Source: Agromyces albus
Lineage (GTDB): Bacteria; Actinomycetota; Actinomycetes; Actinomycetales; Microbacteriaceae
Length of the DNA: 64,000 bases
Direction: 5' to 3'
Assembly: GCF_004134825.1 (NCBI RefSeq)
Contig: NZ_SDPN01000006.1
Coordinates: 62,001 to 126,000 of the forward strand
Part shown: one piece after another, positions 53,535-59,379 of the stretch
Layout of the letters: the number at the start of each line of letters is the position of its first letter
Numbering within the stretch: position 1 is the first letter of the stretch
Notes under the pieces: generated by a model
Seen by the model: the letters and a program-made list of their open reading frames with translations, nothing else
What the model was told of the DNA's origin: nothing
Databases searched by the model: none
Translations under genes and position numbers: made by a program

Positions 53535-54394
53535 GGTGCCTCCCGGTCGGGGTCGTCGCGGGTGAAGACGTAGTCGCCGTTCGCGTCGAGCTCGGCGCGG
53601 AGGCGGCCGTCGGCGAGCGCGGCGAACGCCTCGCGCGAGGCATCGCGCAGGCGTGCTGCAACCTCGGGATCTTCGGCCCGCACGCGCTCGTAATCGGCGA
53701 CGAGCGCGAGTCGGCCCTCGGCTCGCCACTCGGGCACCGCCCGGCGGGCGATCGCCCGAGCGGTGCGGCGGGAGTCGAGCCGCCACAGCACCTCGAACCG
53801 GTCGCTGCGGTCGGCGCCGGTGATCGCATCGCGCAGCTCGCCGTAGAAGTCGGGCAGGAACCGGTCGACCTCCGCGCCGAGTCGCACGAGGTTCAGGTGG
53901 GCGTTGCGCCGGATCAGCGGATCGTAGGTCCAGCGCATCTCGGTCACCCCGTGGGCGAGGCACACGGCGCGCTGGCGGAGCTTCAGTGCGACGCCGATGC
54001 CGCGCCCGCGCGCGCCGGGGTCGACGGCGTTCATGTGCGAGTGCAGGTGCAGTCCGCCGGTCCAGCCGAGGAAGCCGAGCGTCGCGCCGAGCGGCGTGTC
54101 ACCCGACGCGGTTGGCTCGGCGGCGGCATCCGGCCACTGGGTTGCGGTGTTCGGCCACTCGGTGGCGGGCACGGCGACGAGCAGGGTGTTGCCCGCGTGC
54201 TCGAGCGCCTGGAGCATCGAGCGATCGGCGCCGCGCCCCTCGCCCCACGTCGCCTCGAAGCGGGCGAGCACGCCGCCGAGTTCGCTCGGATCGGCCGGAC
54301 GGGTGTGGATGCCGCCGCGCGCGTCTGCGGCATCCGCCGTCGCCTCGGCCTCGGCGATGAGCGCCGCCGGCACCCGCTCGAGCGAGCTGTTCAC
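53531..54394 (-). CDS. GNAT-superfamily acyltransferase of the COG3375 type
   Basis: The 287-residue protein has FLGWTGGLHLHSHMNAVDPGARGRGIGVALKLRQRAVCLAHGVTEMRWTYDPLIRRNAHLNLVRLGAEVDRFLPDFYG (here cited in overlapping family blocks), the hallmark of a GNAT group found next to N-succinylamino acid racemases, where it is thought to succinylate D-amino acids. GTG 54394 overlaps the upstream stop and its own stop overlaps the racemase start, so all three genes are coupled. Confidence 0.87.
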   Translation of the reverse strand: MNSSLERVPAALIAEAEATADAADARGGIHTRPADPSELGGVLARFEATWGEGRGADRSMLQALEHAGNTLLVAVPATEWPNTATQWPDAAAEPTASGDTPLGATLGFLGWTGGLHLHSHMNAVDPGARGRGIGVALKLRQRAVCLAHGVTEMRWTYDPLIRRNAHLNLVRLGAEVDRFLPDFYGELRDAITGADRSDRFEVLWRLDSRRTARAIARRAVPEWRAEGRLALVADYERVRAEDPEVAARLRDASREAFAALADGRLRAELDANGDYVFTRDDPDREAP

Positions 54395-55665
54395 GCCAGC
54401 CGGTCTTCCACGTGCCAGGGCTGGCCGTAGCCGCCGTCGGACTCGGGTCGCGCCATGAGATCGAGGTAGGGCGCCGCGTCGAACGCCTCGGGGCCGAGCA
54501 CGCCGCGGCCCTGCCAGACGCCGGTGGCGAGCAGCTCGAGCGCGATGACGGGGTTCAGGGCGGTCTGCCACACGACGCACTGCGCGTCGTACTCGCGCAT
54601 CGTCCACTCGTTGTCGCTCACGTGGTAGAGATACGCCTCGCGGGCGCCGCCGTCGGTGCCGGTGCCCGTGACCCACACACCGGCGCACGTCTTACCCGTC
54701 ATCCGCGGCCCGATGGTCGCCGGATCGGGCAGCGATGCCGCCACGACATCGCGCGGAGCGACGTGCACGGGGCCGTCGTCGCTCCGCACCCGAACCGGCG
54801 TCGTCGAGTCGAGGCCCAGCATGTGGAGGGTGCGCAACACGTTGATGAACTCCGCACCGAGCCCGTACTTGAAGGTGACGCGCTTCGCGTCGATCCAGCG
54901 CGGCATGAGGAGCACCTCTTCGTGCTCGACGTTCACGCACTCGACCGGGCCGATCCCCTCGGGGAACTCGAACACCTCGGGCTCCGAGAACGGCGCCGTC
55001 GTGAACCAACCGGCCTCCTCCTCCCAGATGACGGGCGGGTTGAGGCACTCCTCGATGGTGGTCCAGATCGAGAACGACGGCGCGAAGATCTCGTTGCCCT
55101 CCTCGTCGGTGACCACGAGGTTCGCGCCGTCGCGCACACCGAGCTCGTCGATCTCGCTGAAGAGGTGGTCGGCGGCGAACCGCGCGAACACGTCGGAGAG
55201 GCCCGGCTCGACGCCCATTCCGACGAGGGCGAGGCGGCCCGCGGCATCCCAATCCGGGCCTTGCGCGAATTGGTCGTCGCCGAGCTTCACGCCCGTCTGC
55301 GTGTACGGGTCGGACGGATGCGGCTCGGAGAGGCTCATCGCCATGTCGAGATAGTCGGCCCCCGCGGCGAGCGCGCCCGCGAAGATCGCCTGCACGAACT
55401 TCGGCTCGACGGCGTTCATCACGTGGGTCGCGCCGTGCTCGCGGGCGACGGATGCCACGATGTCGGGATCGCTCGCATCGATCTGCGTCGTGGCGAAGCG
55501 GGCGGCCACCTCGTCGCCGTGCTTCGTCCGGATCCAGTCGACCGTGCGCTGCGCCCGCGACTCGTCGTAGTCGCTCACGACGAGGAGCTCGAAGAATCCG
55601 CGACGGGCCGCGATCTTGGCAATGGCGTCTCCGACGCCGCCGGCGCCGACGAGGAGGATCCGCAT
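54391..55665 (-). CDS. Saccharopine dehydrogenase-like oxidoreductase
   Basis: The 424-residue protein has the N-terminal Rossmann motif MRILLVGAGGVGDAIAKIAARRG and the saccharopine dehydrogenase fold (GATHVMNAVEPKFVQAIFAGALAAGADYLDMAM; GVEPGLSDVFARFAADHLF). It is related to lysine-pathway and carboxynorspermidine dehydrogenases. The substrate is probably an amino acid conjugate with a 2-oxo acid. It heads the operon with the GNAT and racemase genes. Confidence 0.88.
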   Translation of the reverse strand: MRILLVGAGGVGDAIAKIAARRGFFELLVVSDYDESRAQRTVDWIRTKHGDEVAARFATTQIDASDPDIVASVAREHGATHVMNAVEPKFVQAIFAGALAAGADYLDMAMSLSEPHPSDPYTQTGVKLGDDQFAQGPDWDAAGRLALVGMGVEPGLSDVFARFAADHLFSEIDELGVRDGANLVVTDEEGNEIFAPSFSIWTTIEECLNPPVIWEEEAGWFTTAPFSEPEVFEFPEGIGPVECVNVEHEEVLLMPRWIDAKRVTFKYGLGAEFINVLRTLHMLGLDSTTPVRVRSDDGPVHVAPRDVVAASLPDPATIGPRMTGKTCAGVWVTGTGTDGGAREAYLYHVSDNEWTMREYDAQCVVWQTALNPVIALELLATGVWQGRGVLGPEAFDAAPYLDLMARPESDGGYGQPWHVEDRLA

Positions 55666-55778
55666 CCCACGACGCTATCGTGGCGGGCCCGGCGAGTCGA
55701 TGCCGGGATGCGCGCAGCTCGCCACTCAGCTTCTCCCGGCTCGCCCCGACCGCCCGCCCCGCCGCGCCCAAACGGAGA

Positions 55779-55849
55779 TGCAGGAACTTCCGGGCGCTCG
55801 TCGGCGCGTCGCGGCCCGCAGACGACGCGCCTCGGCGCTTCTTCCTGCA
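55779..55849. repeat. ~71-bp two-stem palindromic element, copy C1 (3' of the DUF559 gene)
   Basis: Outer arms TGCAGGAA (55779-55786) and TTCCTGCA (55842-55849); inner stem GGCGCGTCG (55803-55811) with CGACGCGCC (55823-55831). It lies 17 bp beyond the stop of the DUF559 gene. Copy C2 lies upstream of the same gene. Architecture resembles copies A and B. Confidence 0.82.
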
Positions 55850-55866
55850 ACCCCGCGCGGCACACA

Positions 55867-56838
55867 TCACCCGAACACGTCGGGCAGCCCGCGATGCCGG
55901 CGCACGATCGCAGCGTCCTCAACCGTGCGCGCCACCGCCGCCAGCGTCATCTCCCAGTCCTCCAGCACGTGCCGCGCACTCGGCCTCACCACCGGGACGC
56001 CGAACACCTGGCCGATGAGCGTGCGATCCCGATCGGCGAGGAACTCGTCGGATCCCGAATGGAAGCCGCGGCCGTCGACCTCGAAGAGCACGCATCCGTC
56101 GACGACGCCGTCGTACCTGCCGAATCCCGCCAGGTCGACCTGCGATTCGATGCGGAAGCCGGCACGGGACATCCGTCGAACGAAGAGGCTCTCCACTCCC
56201 GACTCGGGCCTGCCGGTGAAACGATCGATGAGGCTGGCGCTGCAGTTCGGGAGCGACGCCATCAGGGCGTCGACCTGCCTCCGACTCAGGATCCGCTCGT
56301 GCAGGACGGAGTCGATCGCGGCACTCGCGTGTTCGGCGTCCATGCAGCGCAACGCCGCAACGAGAGCCGACTGCGGCGAGACGATCCAGTCGAGCGCTTG
56401 TCGCGGCGCGAACTCTCGTGCCCAATGCACCCGCGGCGCGGCATCCGATGCGAGACGGACGTCGCGTCCTCGACGCGTCGATTCACGCAGCGACGGATGC
56501 CACACGCCCGGGTTCCCGACCTCGATCAACTGTGGTGCGGAGGCCAACGCGAGCCGTGAGGCGGTGCGCGGAACCTGCAGGTGCAGGCAGTCGTCGATGC
56601 CCGACCACACGCCGAAGCGGCGGAGGGCGGAGTGGCATCCGATGCGGGCGCCGGCTGCGATCGCACGGAGCTGGTCTCGGTCGGCGAGCGGGGATGCGAG
56701 CCAGCCGTGGCGAGGTCGCCCGACGACGCCGGAGGTCACGGCAGCGCGCAGCGCTGTCTCTGAGAAGCCGCGAGCCCGCAAGGTCTGCGCGCGAGCAACG
56801 TGACCGAGCCGGGCGAGTTCCGTGAGGATGTCGGGCAT
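55867..56838 (-). CDS. AbiEi-like / DUF559 domain protein
   Basis: The 323-residue protein starts with an AbiEi-antitoxin-like winged helix (PDILTELARLGHVARAQTLRARGFSETALRAAVTSGVVGRPRHGWLASP). It ends with a DUF559/Vsr-like nuclease fold: GRPESGVESLFVRRMSRAGF, GFGRYDGVVDGCVLFEVDGRGFHSG and RDRTLIGQVFGVPVVRPSA. The glutamates and aspartates of the restriction-endonuclease-like core are present. ATG 56838 is used; the frame extends upstream into palindrome C2. Function is unknown; no partner toxin is adjacent. Confidence 0.82.
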   Translation of the reverse strand: MPDILTELARLGHVARAQTLRARGFSETALRAAVTSGVVGRPRHGWLASPLADRDQLRAIAAGARIGCHSALRRFGVWSGIDDCLHLQVPRTASRLALASAPQLIEVGNPGVWHPSLRESTRRGRDVRLASDAAPRVHWAREFAPRQALDWIVSPQSALVAALRCMDAEHASAAIDSVLHERILSRRQVDALMASLPNCSASLIDRFTGRPESGVESLFVRRMSRAGFRIESQVDLAGFGRYDGVVDGCVLFEVDGRGFHSGSDEFLADRDRTLIGQVFGVPVVRPSARHVLEDWEMTLAAVARTVEDAAIVRRHRGLPDVFG

Positions 56839-56938
56839 GACCGGCATCCTTCGGCACGGGCGCGTGTCGCGACGGCGAGGCCGCGTGGTGGCGGAAGACC
56901 TCGCGAGTTGTCCGCCACGGGAGGACGAGTGGTGGCGA

Positions 56939-57013
56939 GATGCAGGAACTTCCGGCGCCGGGGCGGCGCGGCGGCCGACGACACGCCGCGCGACCGGCAG
57001 AAGTTCCTGCATC
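56939..57013. repeat. ~75-bp two-stem palindromic element, copy C2 (5' of the DUF559 gene)
   Basis: Outer arms GATGCAGGAACTTC (56939-56952) and GAAGTTCCTGCATC (57000-57013) are a perfect 14-bp inverted repeat. The inner stem is GCGCGGCG with CGCCGCGC. It lies 100 bp upstream of the DUF559 start. With C1 it brackets the gene, giving a unit of about 1.24 kb. Confidence 0.87.
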
Positions 57014-57016
57014 GGC

Positions 57017-57084
57017 GAGGTGGGGATGAGGTGGGGATGAGGTGAGGTGAGGTGGGGATGAGGTGAGGTGGCGAGGTGGGGATG
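57017..57084. repeat. Degenerate GAGGTGGGGAT tandem repeat
   Basis: Mixed units of GAGGTGGGGAT and GAGGT run head to tail directly beside palindrome C2, up to the stop of the alditol oxidase gene. The strand bias (all purine-rich) could favour slippage. No coding role seen. Confidence 0.8.
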
Positions 57085-57087
57085 CCG

Positions 57088-58380
57088 TCAGGCCCCGAAC
57101 AGCACCCGCTCGGTGAACGCGTTCCGGAACCGGCCCATGGGGTCGTACTGCGCTGCGAGCGCGGTGAACGCGTCGAAGCGAGGGTAGAGCGGGGCGAGCG
57201 CCGCGGCATCCGCTGCGAAGAGCTTGCCCCAGTGCGGTCGTGCCTCGAACCCGGCGAGGGCTGCCTCGAGTCGCGGGAGCAGCGCGACCACCTCGGCCTG
57301 CACGGGTCGCCAGGTGAAGTGCAGCCCGACGACGTCGCGACCGAACGCGGGGCTCAACCAGAGGGCGTCGGCGGCGACCGTGCGCACCTCGCTCACGAAC
57401 AGCAGCGGCGCGATCTCGGCGGCGAGCCCGCGCACCGCCCCGATCGCCGCGACGGCCTGCTCGCGCGGCACGAGGTACTCCGACTGGAGCTCCTCGCCGT
57501 TCGAGGGCGTGAAGCCCATCCTGAAGTGCGCGAGCCGCTCGAGCCACGGGCCCGCGGCGCCGCCCTGTTCGGTGCAGTACTCCGCCGACACCCCGGGCAG
57601 CGGATGCCGAGGACCCGTCGCCGGGCGCGCACCGACGACGTCCGCGAGTGCCGGGCGGTCGCGGTCGGGCCGCCGCTTGACCCAGAGCTGATCGATGACG
57701 TCGGCGTCGCGCCAGGTGGTGAACAGGCTCACCGAATAGCCGAGCCCGGTCACGGCGTCGAGGTCGGCGAGCACGGCGTCGAGCGGAAGACGCTCGTACA
57801 CGGTCTGCTCCACCTGGAAGCTCGGCTCGATGTCGAGCGTCACGTGCGTGACGACACCGAACGCGCCGAGCCCCACCACGACCGCGTCGAAGTCCGCATC
57901 GCCGCGGCGGAGCGTCACGAGCTCGCCCCCCGCGGTCAGCAGCTCGACTGCGGCGACGGATGCCGCGAGCGAGCCGTTGCGATCGCCGGAGCCGTGCGTT
58001 CCCGTGCTCACGGCGCCTGCCACCGAGATGTGCGGCAGGGAGGCGAGGTTGCCGACCGCCCAGCCGGACTCCTCGAGCCGGACGGCGAGGTCTCCGTAGC
58101 GCAGACCGCCGCTCACACGCACGAGGCGTCGCTCGGCGTCGATCTCGATGTCGGCAGGCAGCGCCGCAGTCGACACGAGCAGGCCGTCGGTGTCGGCGAT
58201 GTCGTTGAACGAGTGCCTGGTGCCGAGCGGACGCACGCGTTCGCCGGCCAGTTCGGCGGCGGCGAGCAGGCGTCGCAGCTCGTCGAGGTCGCGCGGGGCC
58301 GCAACGCCGCGGGCGGCGTAGCGGAGGTTGCCGGCCCAGTTGGTGGCGCTCGGCTGGATCGTCGTGGGGGCGGGGGTCAT
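57088..58380 (-). CDS. FAD-linked alditol/xylitol oxidase-type protein
   Basis: The 430-residue protein is a VAO-family flavoprotein. RPLGTRHSFNDIADT holds the histidine that binds FAD covalently in AldO, ISVAGAVSTGTHGSGDRNG binds the pyrophosphate, and the C-terminal HWGKLFA matches the ALO-domain catalytic lysine region. Such enzymes oxidise xylitol, sorbitol or aldonolactones with O2, giving H2O2. ATG 58380 is chosen; ATG 58407 is in frame. It is preceded by a purine-degradation operon without a clear metabolic link. Confidence 0.88.
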   Translation of the reverse strand: MTPAPTTIQPSATNWAGNLRYAARGVAAPRDLDELRRLLAAAELAGERVRPLGTRHSFNDIADTDGLLVSTAALPADIEIDAERRLVRVSGGLRYGDLAVRLEESGWAVGNLASLPHISVAGAVSTGTHGSGDRNGSLAASVAAVELLTAGGELVTLRRGDADFDAVVVGLGAFGVVTHVTLDIEPSFQVEQTVYERLPLDAVLADLDAVTGLGYSVSLFTTWRDADVIDQLWVKRRPDRDRPALADVVGARPATGPRHPLPGVSAEYCTEQGGAAGPWLERLAHFRMGFTPSNGEELQSEYLVPREQAVAAIGAVRGLAAEIAPLLFVSEVRTVAADALWLSPAFGRDVVGLHFTWRPVQAEVVALLPRLEAALAGFEARPHWGKLFAADAAALAPLYPRFDAFTALAAQYDPMGRFRNAFTERVLFGA

Positions 58381-58479
58381 GGGGTCAAGCCTGCCGTACG
58401 TGTCCATCGCGGGCTCGGTTGACGCGCGGATTCCTCGCGACGACACGCACCTGGGCGAGATCGAGGGGCGCGGCATCCG

Positions 58480-59379
58480 TCATCGCAGCCCGCTCGAGAC
58501 GTCACCTCCCGAGAACAGTCCGCTCGAGAGCTGGCCGCTCGGGAACTGTCCGCGGGGAACCGGCTCGGTCAGGCGCACCTGGCGGTTCACGTCCTTGTAG
58601 AGGAGATAGCGGAACAGGCCCGGCCCGCCCGCATAACAGGCCTGCGGGCAGAAGGCCCTCAGCCACATGAAGTCTCCTGCCTCGACCTCGACCCAGTCGT
58701 CGTTCAGCCGGTACACGCCCTTGCCTTCGAGCACGAAGAGCCCGTGCTCCATCACGTGCGTCTCGGCGAACGGGAGCGAGCCGCCCGGCTGGAACGTCAC
58801 GATGTTCACGTGCATGTCGTGCGCGAGATCGTCGGGGTCCACGAACCGGGTTGTCGCCCATGCGCCGTTCGTGCCGGGCATCTCCTGGGGCGCGACCTCC
58901 GCGTCGCTCGTGAAGAACGACGTGGCCGTATGTCCCTCGAGTGGCTCGTACGCCTTGCGGATCCAGTGGAAGCTCGTGAGCGCCGCACCCTCGTTCGAGA
59001 TCGACCAGCGCTCCCCCGCCGCGAGATACGCGTAGCCGCCCGCCTCGAGCACGTGCCGCTCGCTCTCTCGCTCGAGCGTGAGGGTGAGCTCGCCCGACGT
59101 CACGAACACGACGCCCTCGACCCCGAGCTCCTGCTCGGGATGCTCCGCTCCGCCGCCGGGTGCGATCTCGACGATGAGCTGCGAGAACGTCGTCGCGAAC
59201 CCGGCGATGGGCCGGGCGATGATCCACGCGCGGGTGTCCGTGAAGCCCGGCAGGTTGCTCGTGACGATGTCGCGCAGCACGCCCTTCGGGATCACCGTGT
59301 AGGCCTCCGTCACGATCGCACGATCCGTGAGGAGCTCGGTCTGCGCGGGCAGTCCGCCCTGCGGGGTGAAGTAGCTCAT
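58480..59379 (-). CDS. allE: (S)-ureidoglycine aminohydrolase
   Basis: The 299-residue bicupin releases ammonia from (S)-ureidoglycine in allantoin breakdown. It has two cupin domains: GVEGVVFVTSGELTLTLE with HPEQEL before it, and VTFQPGGSLPFAETHVMEHGLFVLEGKGVYRL carrying the Mn ligands (E, H, H, Q pattern). The C-terminal end has a short QFPSGQLSSGLFSGGDVSSG repeat not usual in the family. It follows DUF6986 and malate synthase genes; its ureidoglycolate product leads on to the glyoxylate they use. Confidence 0.92.
   Translation of the reverse strand: MSYFTPQGGLPAQTELLTDRAIVTEAYTVIPKGVLRDIVTSNLPGFTDTRAWIIARPIAGFATTFSQLIVEIAPGGGAEHPEQELGVEGVVFVTSGELTLTLERESERHVLEAGGYAYLAAGERWSISNEGAALTSFHWIRKAYEPLEGHTATSFFTSDAEVAPQEMPGTNGAWATTRFVDPDDLAHDMHVNIVTFQPGGSLPFAETHVMEHGLFVLEGKGVYRLNDDWVEVEAGDFMWLRAFCPQACYAGGPGLFRYLLYKDVNRQVRLTEPVPRGQFPSGQLSSGLFSGGDVSSGLR

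Follow-up and report, generated by a model that had tools for sequence, protein, structure and literature searches.

A predicted AbiEi-EDxHD nuclease gene bracketed by palindromes with matching arms in Agromyces albus and other Actinomycetota

About half of the examined Actinomycetota relatives of a nuclease gene from Agromyces albus are bracketed by pairs of palindromes with matching arms. The sequence of the arms tracks the nuclease tree, between genera too; many genomes have roughly 10-40 dispersed palindromes that share those arms; and the distance between arms changes in steps of about one helical turn while the interiors vary. We give an even chance to the reading that the gene encodes a site-specific nuclease bracketed by two of its own recognition elements, which recognizes dispersed two-arm sites of its own and presumably cuts them. 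This enzyme-and-repeat partnership is apparently undescribed: among the matches listed from open PMC papers, we found no description of a nuclease-palindrome association and none of a function for an AbiEi-EDxHD fusion.

The palindrome-flanked gene and its predicted product

The gene lies in a 64,000-nucleotide stretch of the A. albus genome, analyzed as a whole and referred to here as the window. It occupies 55867..56838 on the minus strand, encodes 323 aa, and its best other matches are 49, 45 and 42% identical. As the initial annotation had indicated, it sits between two palindromes (neither assigned to a strand), C1 downstream at 55779..55849 and C2 upstream at 56941..57011, which share the form TGCAGGAA...TTCCTGCA and are each exactly 71 bp long. 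The gene is separated from C1 by 17 bp and from C2 by 102 bp, the latter being a leader (56839..56940, minus strand) that extends from the upstream palindrome to the start codon and is expected to hold a promoter. Perfect arms span just 8 bp in C1 (55779-55786 and 55842-55849) and 14 nt in C2 (from 56939, GATGCAGGAACTTC, and to 57013). The palindrome pattern matched twice in the window and not at all in 100 shuffles of it. The neighbors, also on the minus strand, are a saccharopine dehydrogenase-like gene (54391-55665; PF03435/PF16653) and an ALO/FAD (ALO-type) oxidase gene (57088-58476; PF01565/PF04030). A run of GGTGAGGTGGGGATGAGG-type tandem repeats (57014-57092) directly adjoins the right palindrome.

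Five such palindromes, all of 71 bp, are present in the genome of A. albus, and three of these are solo copies next to other genes. From our reading of the ORFs, we take one (L001) to lie between an ABC ATPase and a permease gene, another (L002) near a small SnoaL-like gene, and the third (L003) after rplL. Solo 71-bp TGCAGGAA palindromes about 140 bp past what is presumably rplL occur in two genera (L003 1501-1571 and L016 1501-1571). The A. albus genome encodes a second homolog (L351), whose bracketing palindromes measure 59 bp and have different arms, TGCAGGGGATTC (L351 1296-1354 and 2430-2488).

The window protein is predicted to consist of an AbiEi-like part and an EDxHD/Vsr-like nuclease with its key residues kept. 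Pfam matches to AbiEi_4 (E 5e-4), AbiEi_3_N (E 0.012) and MTES_1575 (E 0.15) all fall below the curated cut-offs. In the predicted structure (pLDDT 85.2, pTM 0.81), residues 1-208 (56215..56838, minus strand) form a winged helix and a second part, for which AbiEi from Streptococcus agalactiae (6y8q) is the best Foldseek match of the model (E 6.4e-4) with a Z score of 7.0 over 160 residues, a value inside the range that the tool calls common. The C-terminal nuclease domain, residues 213-311 (55906..56202, minus strand), matches I-Bth0305I with Z 10.4, and residues 76-311 match Vsr (1cw0) with Z 8.8. The modeled folds agree with the AbiEi-like winged helix and Vsr-like nuclease that had been proposed from the letters alone. 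Residues E216, D243, H260 and D269, which by our own matching we assign to an E-D-x-H-D motif, are invariant in both alignments (22 and 31 sequences), as are E253, D255 and R272 in the alignment of 31. Profile searches of the PDB returned 3hrl (E 2.5e-7) and the I-Bth0305I domain, 3r3p (E 7.7e-5), with alignment A2, and the same two entries (E 3e-9 and 0.0021) with alignment A3, which contains the window protein. When ten proteins were compared with Pfam, AbiEi, MTES_1575 and DUF559 models were matched, and no transposase (HUH/Y1) model was among the matches.

Matched arms in relatives and dispersed copies

A protein search at E 1e-5 detected a homolog in 105 of 150 family genomes, often several per genome; searches of phage and plasmid collections gave 1 and 2 weak matches, respectively. 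The palindrome pattern of the window itself matched 12 of the 150 genomes, and several of these matches are unlike the window elements. One genome of another genus (G076) has two 69-bp TGCAGGAA palindromes 1,104 bp apart around a 288-aa relative.

Recurrence was measured with a pair test that leaves the sequence free and asks whether one palindrome on each side of the gene shares its arms with the other. The 91 loci comprised 30 given from the family protein search, 60 more in listed order and L017, added as a known pair; second pieces of one gene were skipped and lower matches left out. With exact 8-nt arms, a matched pair was present at 38 of the 91 loci, versus 2 of 420 gene-sized tiles from 20 control stretches of family genomes and 70 of 8,190 mispaired flanks. 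With a tolerant score (at least 11 of 14 positions) the count was 45 of 91, versus 7 of 1,081 mispairs. Removal of L017 and L019, whose pairs were known beforehand, left 36 of 89 (exact) and 44 of 89 (tolerant). Named actinobacterial relatives, a set independent of the family set save for one locus common to both, gave 45 of 80 with the tolerant score versus 6 of 631 mispairs; at that limit no pair was found at 46 of the 91 family loci and 35 of the 80 named relatives. A score of at least 10 raised the latter set to 54 of 80 (11 of 631 for mispairs), with positives that include Microbacteriaceae, 6 of 9 Gordonia loci, Arthrobacter, Actinomyces, Schaalia, Agrococcus, Demequina and Cellulomonas. 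Gordonia belongs to the Mycobacteriales, and Diaminobutyricibacter tongyongensis (L187) to the Microbacteriaceae, Micrococcales. When lengths were allowed to differ by at most 26, the arm-pair test was positive at 95 of 171 loci versus 11 of 1,022.

The gene and its palindromes form a unit, as had been suggested for the window, and this unit recurs elsewhere. The same suggestion had named, as grounds against it, palindromes equally frequent beside unrelated genes and a lack of linkage to the nuclease gene elsewhere; solo palindromes do adjoin other genes, but the linkage elsewhere is strong. One of the two positive control tiles (L121, ~15900 and 17436) holds a real CCTGCCCA palindrome pair without such a nuclease gene, around a gene that we read as PadR-like. 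At one nuclease locus (L038) there are three matching palindromes (1353, 2502 and 2674), two of them in tandem on one side.

At 49 of 55 bracketed loci, 60-190 bp separate the end of the upstream palindrome from the protein match. Arms differ between loci and often have CAGGA or CTCCTG as their core; examples are AAATGCAGGA, AACTCAGG, AACTCCTGCA, AAAACAGGAG and ATTCAGGC. A CAGG-type box is present in the arm consensus of 35 of the 55, and GTAG in one (L048). An arm type tends to be common to related nucleases of different genera, and different nucleases within one genome have different arms. Arm similarity drops as protein distance grows (rho -0.18), with 3 of 999 permutations equally extreme, or 7 of 999 when the comparison is restricted to different-genus pairs.

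Copies with a given arm type were then counted genome by genome, bracketing copies included. Palindromes with AATGMAGGA arms numbered 20, 36, 24, 27, 4, 0, 13, 1, 0, 38, 24 and 43 in 12 genomes, that is, 13-43 in eight and 4, 1, 0 and 0 in the rest. Those with AACTCMKG arms numbered 20, 9, 0, 17, 11, 31, 25, 17, 21, 0 and 0 in 11 genomes (9-31 in eight, 0 in the rest). A reversed control pattern gave 0 copies in all 23. Over the 150 family genomes, AATGMAGGA palindromes were present in 20 and reached at least five copies in 14; a nuclease of the L090 type (at least 170 bits to L090, a limit chosen after inspection of the list) was likewise found in 14. At least five copies and an L090-type nuclease occurred together in 7 genomes (P 2.9e-5), and any copy and such a nuclease in 9 (P 2.8e-6). 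Seven of the 14 genomes with an L090-type nuclease have fewer than five copies, and their arms may differ; seven of the 14 with at least five copies in turn fall below the 170 bits, and this mutual shortfall of one half speaks against a strict link. Orphan repeats occur in G058, which has 14 AATGCAGGAG palindromes and is outside the set of genomes where a nuclease was matched; G127, of the same genus, combines 36 copies with a bracketed nuclease. In G207, 9 of 24 copies lie inside predicted ORFs, and the 15 outside fall between divergent (4), convergent (3) or tandem (8) genes. G037 has a solo copy right after a gene that we read as dapD. At L327, an extra single arm (TTTGTCGAAAATGCAGGAG) adjoins a complete element just before position 1001.

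Arm spacing, interiors and a candidate mechanism

Elements range from 42 to 124 bp overall. In G207, TGTCGAAAATGCAGGAG arms and their complements are nearly invariant and enclose a variable interior of ~53 bp with a subterminal box CGGGCGTGTCG. Comparison of 21 G207 copies showed that they are not alike throughout, as MITE-type copies would be; their arms are kept and their interiors vary.

We asked how far the palindromes of the window deserve to be called hairpins, as they were in the initial annotation. The interiors of C1 and C2 fold with z scores of -1.61 and -0.14 relative to shuffles, and across 107 bracketing palindromes the interiors have a slight folding advantage over shuffles (mean z -1.2; 22% under -2). 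A few elements fold strongly over their whole length (L048, L051 and L100). In mirror register, the G207 interiors formed 247 pairs versus 265 expected from shuffled halves, and those of G037 122 versus 129. The G207 test used 29 of 38 copies, namely 35 listed ones less four whose length differed and a further two, both 75 bp long, of which one was coding-like and one a near-duplicate. The G037 test used 16 of 27 copies, those of 73 bp only. This column-by-column pairing in G207 and G037 did not uphold a reading of the interiors as hairpins with compensatory changes. Since mirror pairing is lacking in both families, "palindrome" stands for the arms and "hairpin" is not established.

Spacing between the arms clusters at ~55, 66, 77 and 86 bp, values that differ by about one turn of the helix. 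Among 75 copies of the AACTC family, 73 measure 73-74, 83-86 or 94-95 bp, with 71-101 bp allowed; the sample comprised all copies of G141, G078, G124 and G054 and 18 of the 21 of G076, leaving out G050, G120 and G091. For the CAGG-type box, spacing was measured at the 35 of 55 loci whose arm consensus has CAGG, CAGC, CAAGG or GAAGG, a box picked after the arms had been seen, and loci of one lineage are not independent. Here 64 of 70 palindromes are spaced at 44, 54-55, 64-67, 75-78 or 85-88 bp, with a main class of 64-69 bp (18 of the 35 loci). For this box and for the AACTC copies alike, the dominance of one class makes vector lengths high at neighboring periods as well, and the 17 loci outside the main class were therefore tested by themselves. 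Fourteen of them fall within 2 bp of a whole number of 10.5-bp turns above or below the main class (P 2.5e-4); a period of 10.25 gives the best agreement. Loci seen later have spacings of 55 (L351, L358), 67 (L359 and one side of L356) and 68 bp (L354), and also of 66 (L352) and 78 bp (the other side of L356), two lengths known earlier than the other later loci; L355 and L357 showed no palindrome pair. Helical steps are what one would expect of a protein that grips the two arms of a double-stranded DNA on one side, and not of an extruded hairpin.

Taken together, these patterns strongly suggest that the protein binds its own palindromes. Recognition of palindromes by the encoded protein, as first proposed, is in this sense supported indirectly; recognition of DNA hairpins is not, given the lack of mirror-register pairing in the families tested and the helically stepped spacing, even if some elements fold well. 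The simplest reading is a dimeric nuclease that has a family of two-arm sites of its own; it accounts for bracketing, co-variation, dispersal and stepped spacing at once. A homodimer would use its AbiEi-type winged helices to bind both arms of double-stranded DNA on the same face, with the nuclease domains acting between the bound arms. That the protein cuts the palindromes is inferred from its kept residues and homing-endonuclease fold. Solo elements might then be cut and repaired from gene-bearing copies or from other elements, which would keep arms alike within a genome while interiors drift; were the bracketing pair cut, the gene could be lost and a solo element left behind. The benefit may fall to the gene alone, as a homing-like drive, or to the host, if the enzyme is domesticated. 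We hypothesize that cutting drives spread or homogenization.

Several other explanations must be weighed. Accidental pairing in G+C-rich intergenic DNA does account for a few pairs in the controls (2 of 420 tiles; 7 of 1,081 and 6 of 631 mispairs), but with about half of the nuclease loci positive versus 0.5-1.1% in controls, chance or composition has practically no claim. If the elements were insulators or bidirectional terminators of transcription that flank the nuclease gene by coincidence, they would be at home between genes, where many of them lie, and their G+C-rich inverted arms would suit them; the solo copy just past dapD in G037 is in keeping with such a role. This explanation leaves matching arms on both sides, co-variation with the nuclease tree and the spacing steps unaccounted for, and 4 of the 15 G207 copies outside ORFs are between divergent genes, so that we regard it as very improbable.

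The two remaining alternatives each draw on part of the evidence cited above. If the palindromes were REP-like mobile hairpins, the protein would act on a folded single strand, as TnpA-REP does, and copy elements to new places. Repeats that bracket the gene, occur in dispersed copies and co-vary with its enzyme are REPtron traits, L048, L051 and L100 fold very well throughout, and the 107 interiors have the mean z of -1.2. Against this, the model matches AbiEi and Vsr/EDxHD folds and Pfam gives no transposase model, mirror pairing does not exceed that of shuffles in either family, spacing steps are helical, and interiors vary among copies, unlike those of fresh copies; we consider such elements unlikely. 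Autoregulation alone, with the AbiEi-like part binding the palindromes as operators of its own gene and the dispersed copies serving as regulon or decoys, is rather unlikely. It gains from the AbiEi-type winged helix, from the element 60-190 bp upstream at 49 of the 55 loci, and from helical phasing, which fits a repressor spanning both arms; it would leave without a role the second matching element downstream of the gene and the invariance of E216, D243, H260 and D269, and the placement of the 15 G207 copies, mostly tandem or convergent, also speaks against it.

Comparison with known systems places the nuclease-palindrome unit beside several of them. REPtrons (TnpA-REP/RAYT with REP palindromes), as described in PMC3733652 and PMC8266576, also have a single bracketed enzyme gene, dispersed copies and lineage-specific repeats. 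They differ in that the enzyme here is modeled as AbiEi plus EDxHD/Vsr-like, without an HUH transposase, and in that their repeats are 20-40-bp GTAG-tagged hairpins, whereas those described here are 42-124 bp long with stepped arms and a variable interior; our unit was examined in Actinomycetota only. The analogy with REP-associated transposase units drawn in the initial annotation is thus a good one for layout, that is, for bracketing, dispersal and repeats that track the enzyme tree, and the parallel is one of layout, not descent. The EDxHD homing endonuclease I-Bth0305I, the nearest solved nuclease fold, shares this fold and the E-D-H-D residues; such enzymes are reported in a review (PMC3943268) to dimerize on a target of nearly 60 bp. 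The stepped spacing of the palindrome arms would suit a double-stranded site gripped by a protein dimer. The window-type nuclease differs from it in its AbiEi-like N terminus, its many dispersed two-arm sites and the several homologs often found per genome. No Rfam family, and hence no group I intron, was matched at E 0.1 in 54000-58600, and the nuclease gene is free-standing and intergenic. AbiEi of the AbiE type IV toxin-antitoxin systems resembles the N-terminal part, but the window protein carries a nuclease domain, and no AbiEii nucleotidyltransferase partner lies beside the gene, its neighbors being the PF03435/PF16653 and PF01565/PF04030 proteins. Vsr mismatch endonucleases and DUF559 proteins share the catalytic fold, whereas the window-type nuclease shows no sign of a role in mismatch repair and is linked to palindromes.

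With homologs in 105 of 150 family genomes, each bracketed homolog comes with a predicted DNA target that can be read from its own flanks, so its specificity is testable at once. If the proteins do cut their sites, palindromic-repeat partnerships would have arisen a second time, independently of REP/RAYT, and nature would offer a large collection of nucleases with long targets. A broader proposal is tentative, and we would sooner expect it to fail than to hold: a new Actinomycetota class of enzyme and repeat, in which an AbiEi-EDxHD nuclease dimer recognizes, cuts and homogenizes its own two-arm phased sites genome-wide and homes between fixed intergenic loci via these sites, convergent with REPtrons and using an enzyme of the homing-endonuclease type. 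The question raised is why the arms are fixed, yet the interiors change freely at near-constant length.

Presence and absence at shared loci

Comparison of the window locus covered 30 of the 59 genomes with a match. In a congener, G151, the two neighbor genes are 98.8% and 96.5% identical to those of the window and only ~50 bp lie between them, the unit being absent. The initial annotation had called for a search for insertion polymorphism; the unit is indeed missing from this genome, but short GGGATG repeats, rather than the palindromes, mark the ends of the difference, and for this reason a plain deletion suffices to explain the absence. Homologs occupy the same locus in G154, G196 and G183 (among 30 loci, own genome included) and also in G079. 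Of these, G079 has ATCAGGAA arms and G183 ATTCAGGA arms, with one palindrome found in G183 and in G196 and none in G154.

Of the solo copies in A. albus, L001 and L003 are absent from G151, and the flanks of L002 aligned at no single place. Eight G207 sites were queried in G208 and G209 and four aligned: at two of them both genomes carry a palindrome in the corresponding position, at the third G208 does, and the fourth is empty in both. In these shared palindromes, 74-75 bp long where the length could be read from the alignment, arms are kept or changed on both sides and interiors are not alignable by eye. Solo copies common to two or three genomes are old residents.

No exact empty site ending at the arms was found at the window locus in G151, at L001 and L003, at dapD in 30 genomes or at the four G207 sites, and 20 full-arm copies, from G207 only, showed no excess of target-site duplications over mispaired flanks (k 2-9, offsets 0-5). 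Thus, mobilization of the palindromes by the protein, which had been raised as a possibility, found no backing in target duplications or in the borders of presence and absence, which are not at palindromes. Patchy presence at conserved loci fits gain or loss; long residence with loss is clear, and mobility, in the sense of recent movement, is unproven.

Related nucleases tend to share a locus across genera, for example beside what we read as dapD in several Microbacteriaceae and in Gordonia. At this locus a nuclease gene lies within 1,500 bp in 3 of the 30 genomes examined (30 of 144). In G089 (L264), a short palindrome array of another type (GAGCGCCGCGG, AAAACGGCCG) lies past the gene that we take to be dapD.
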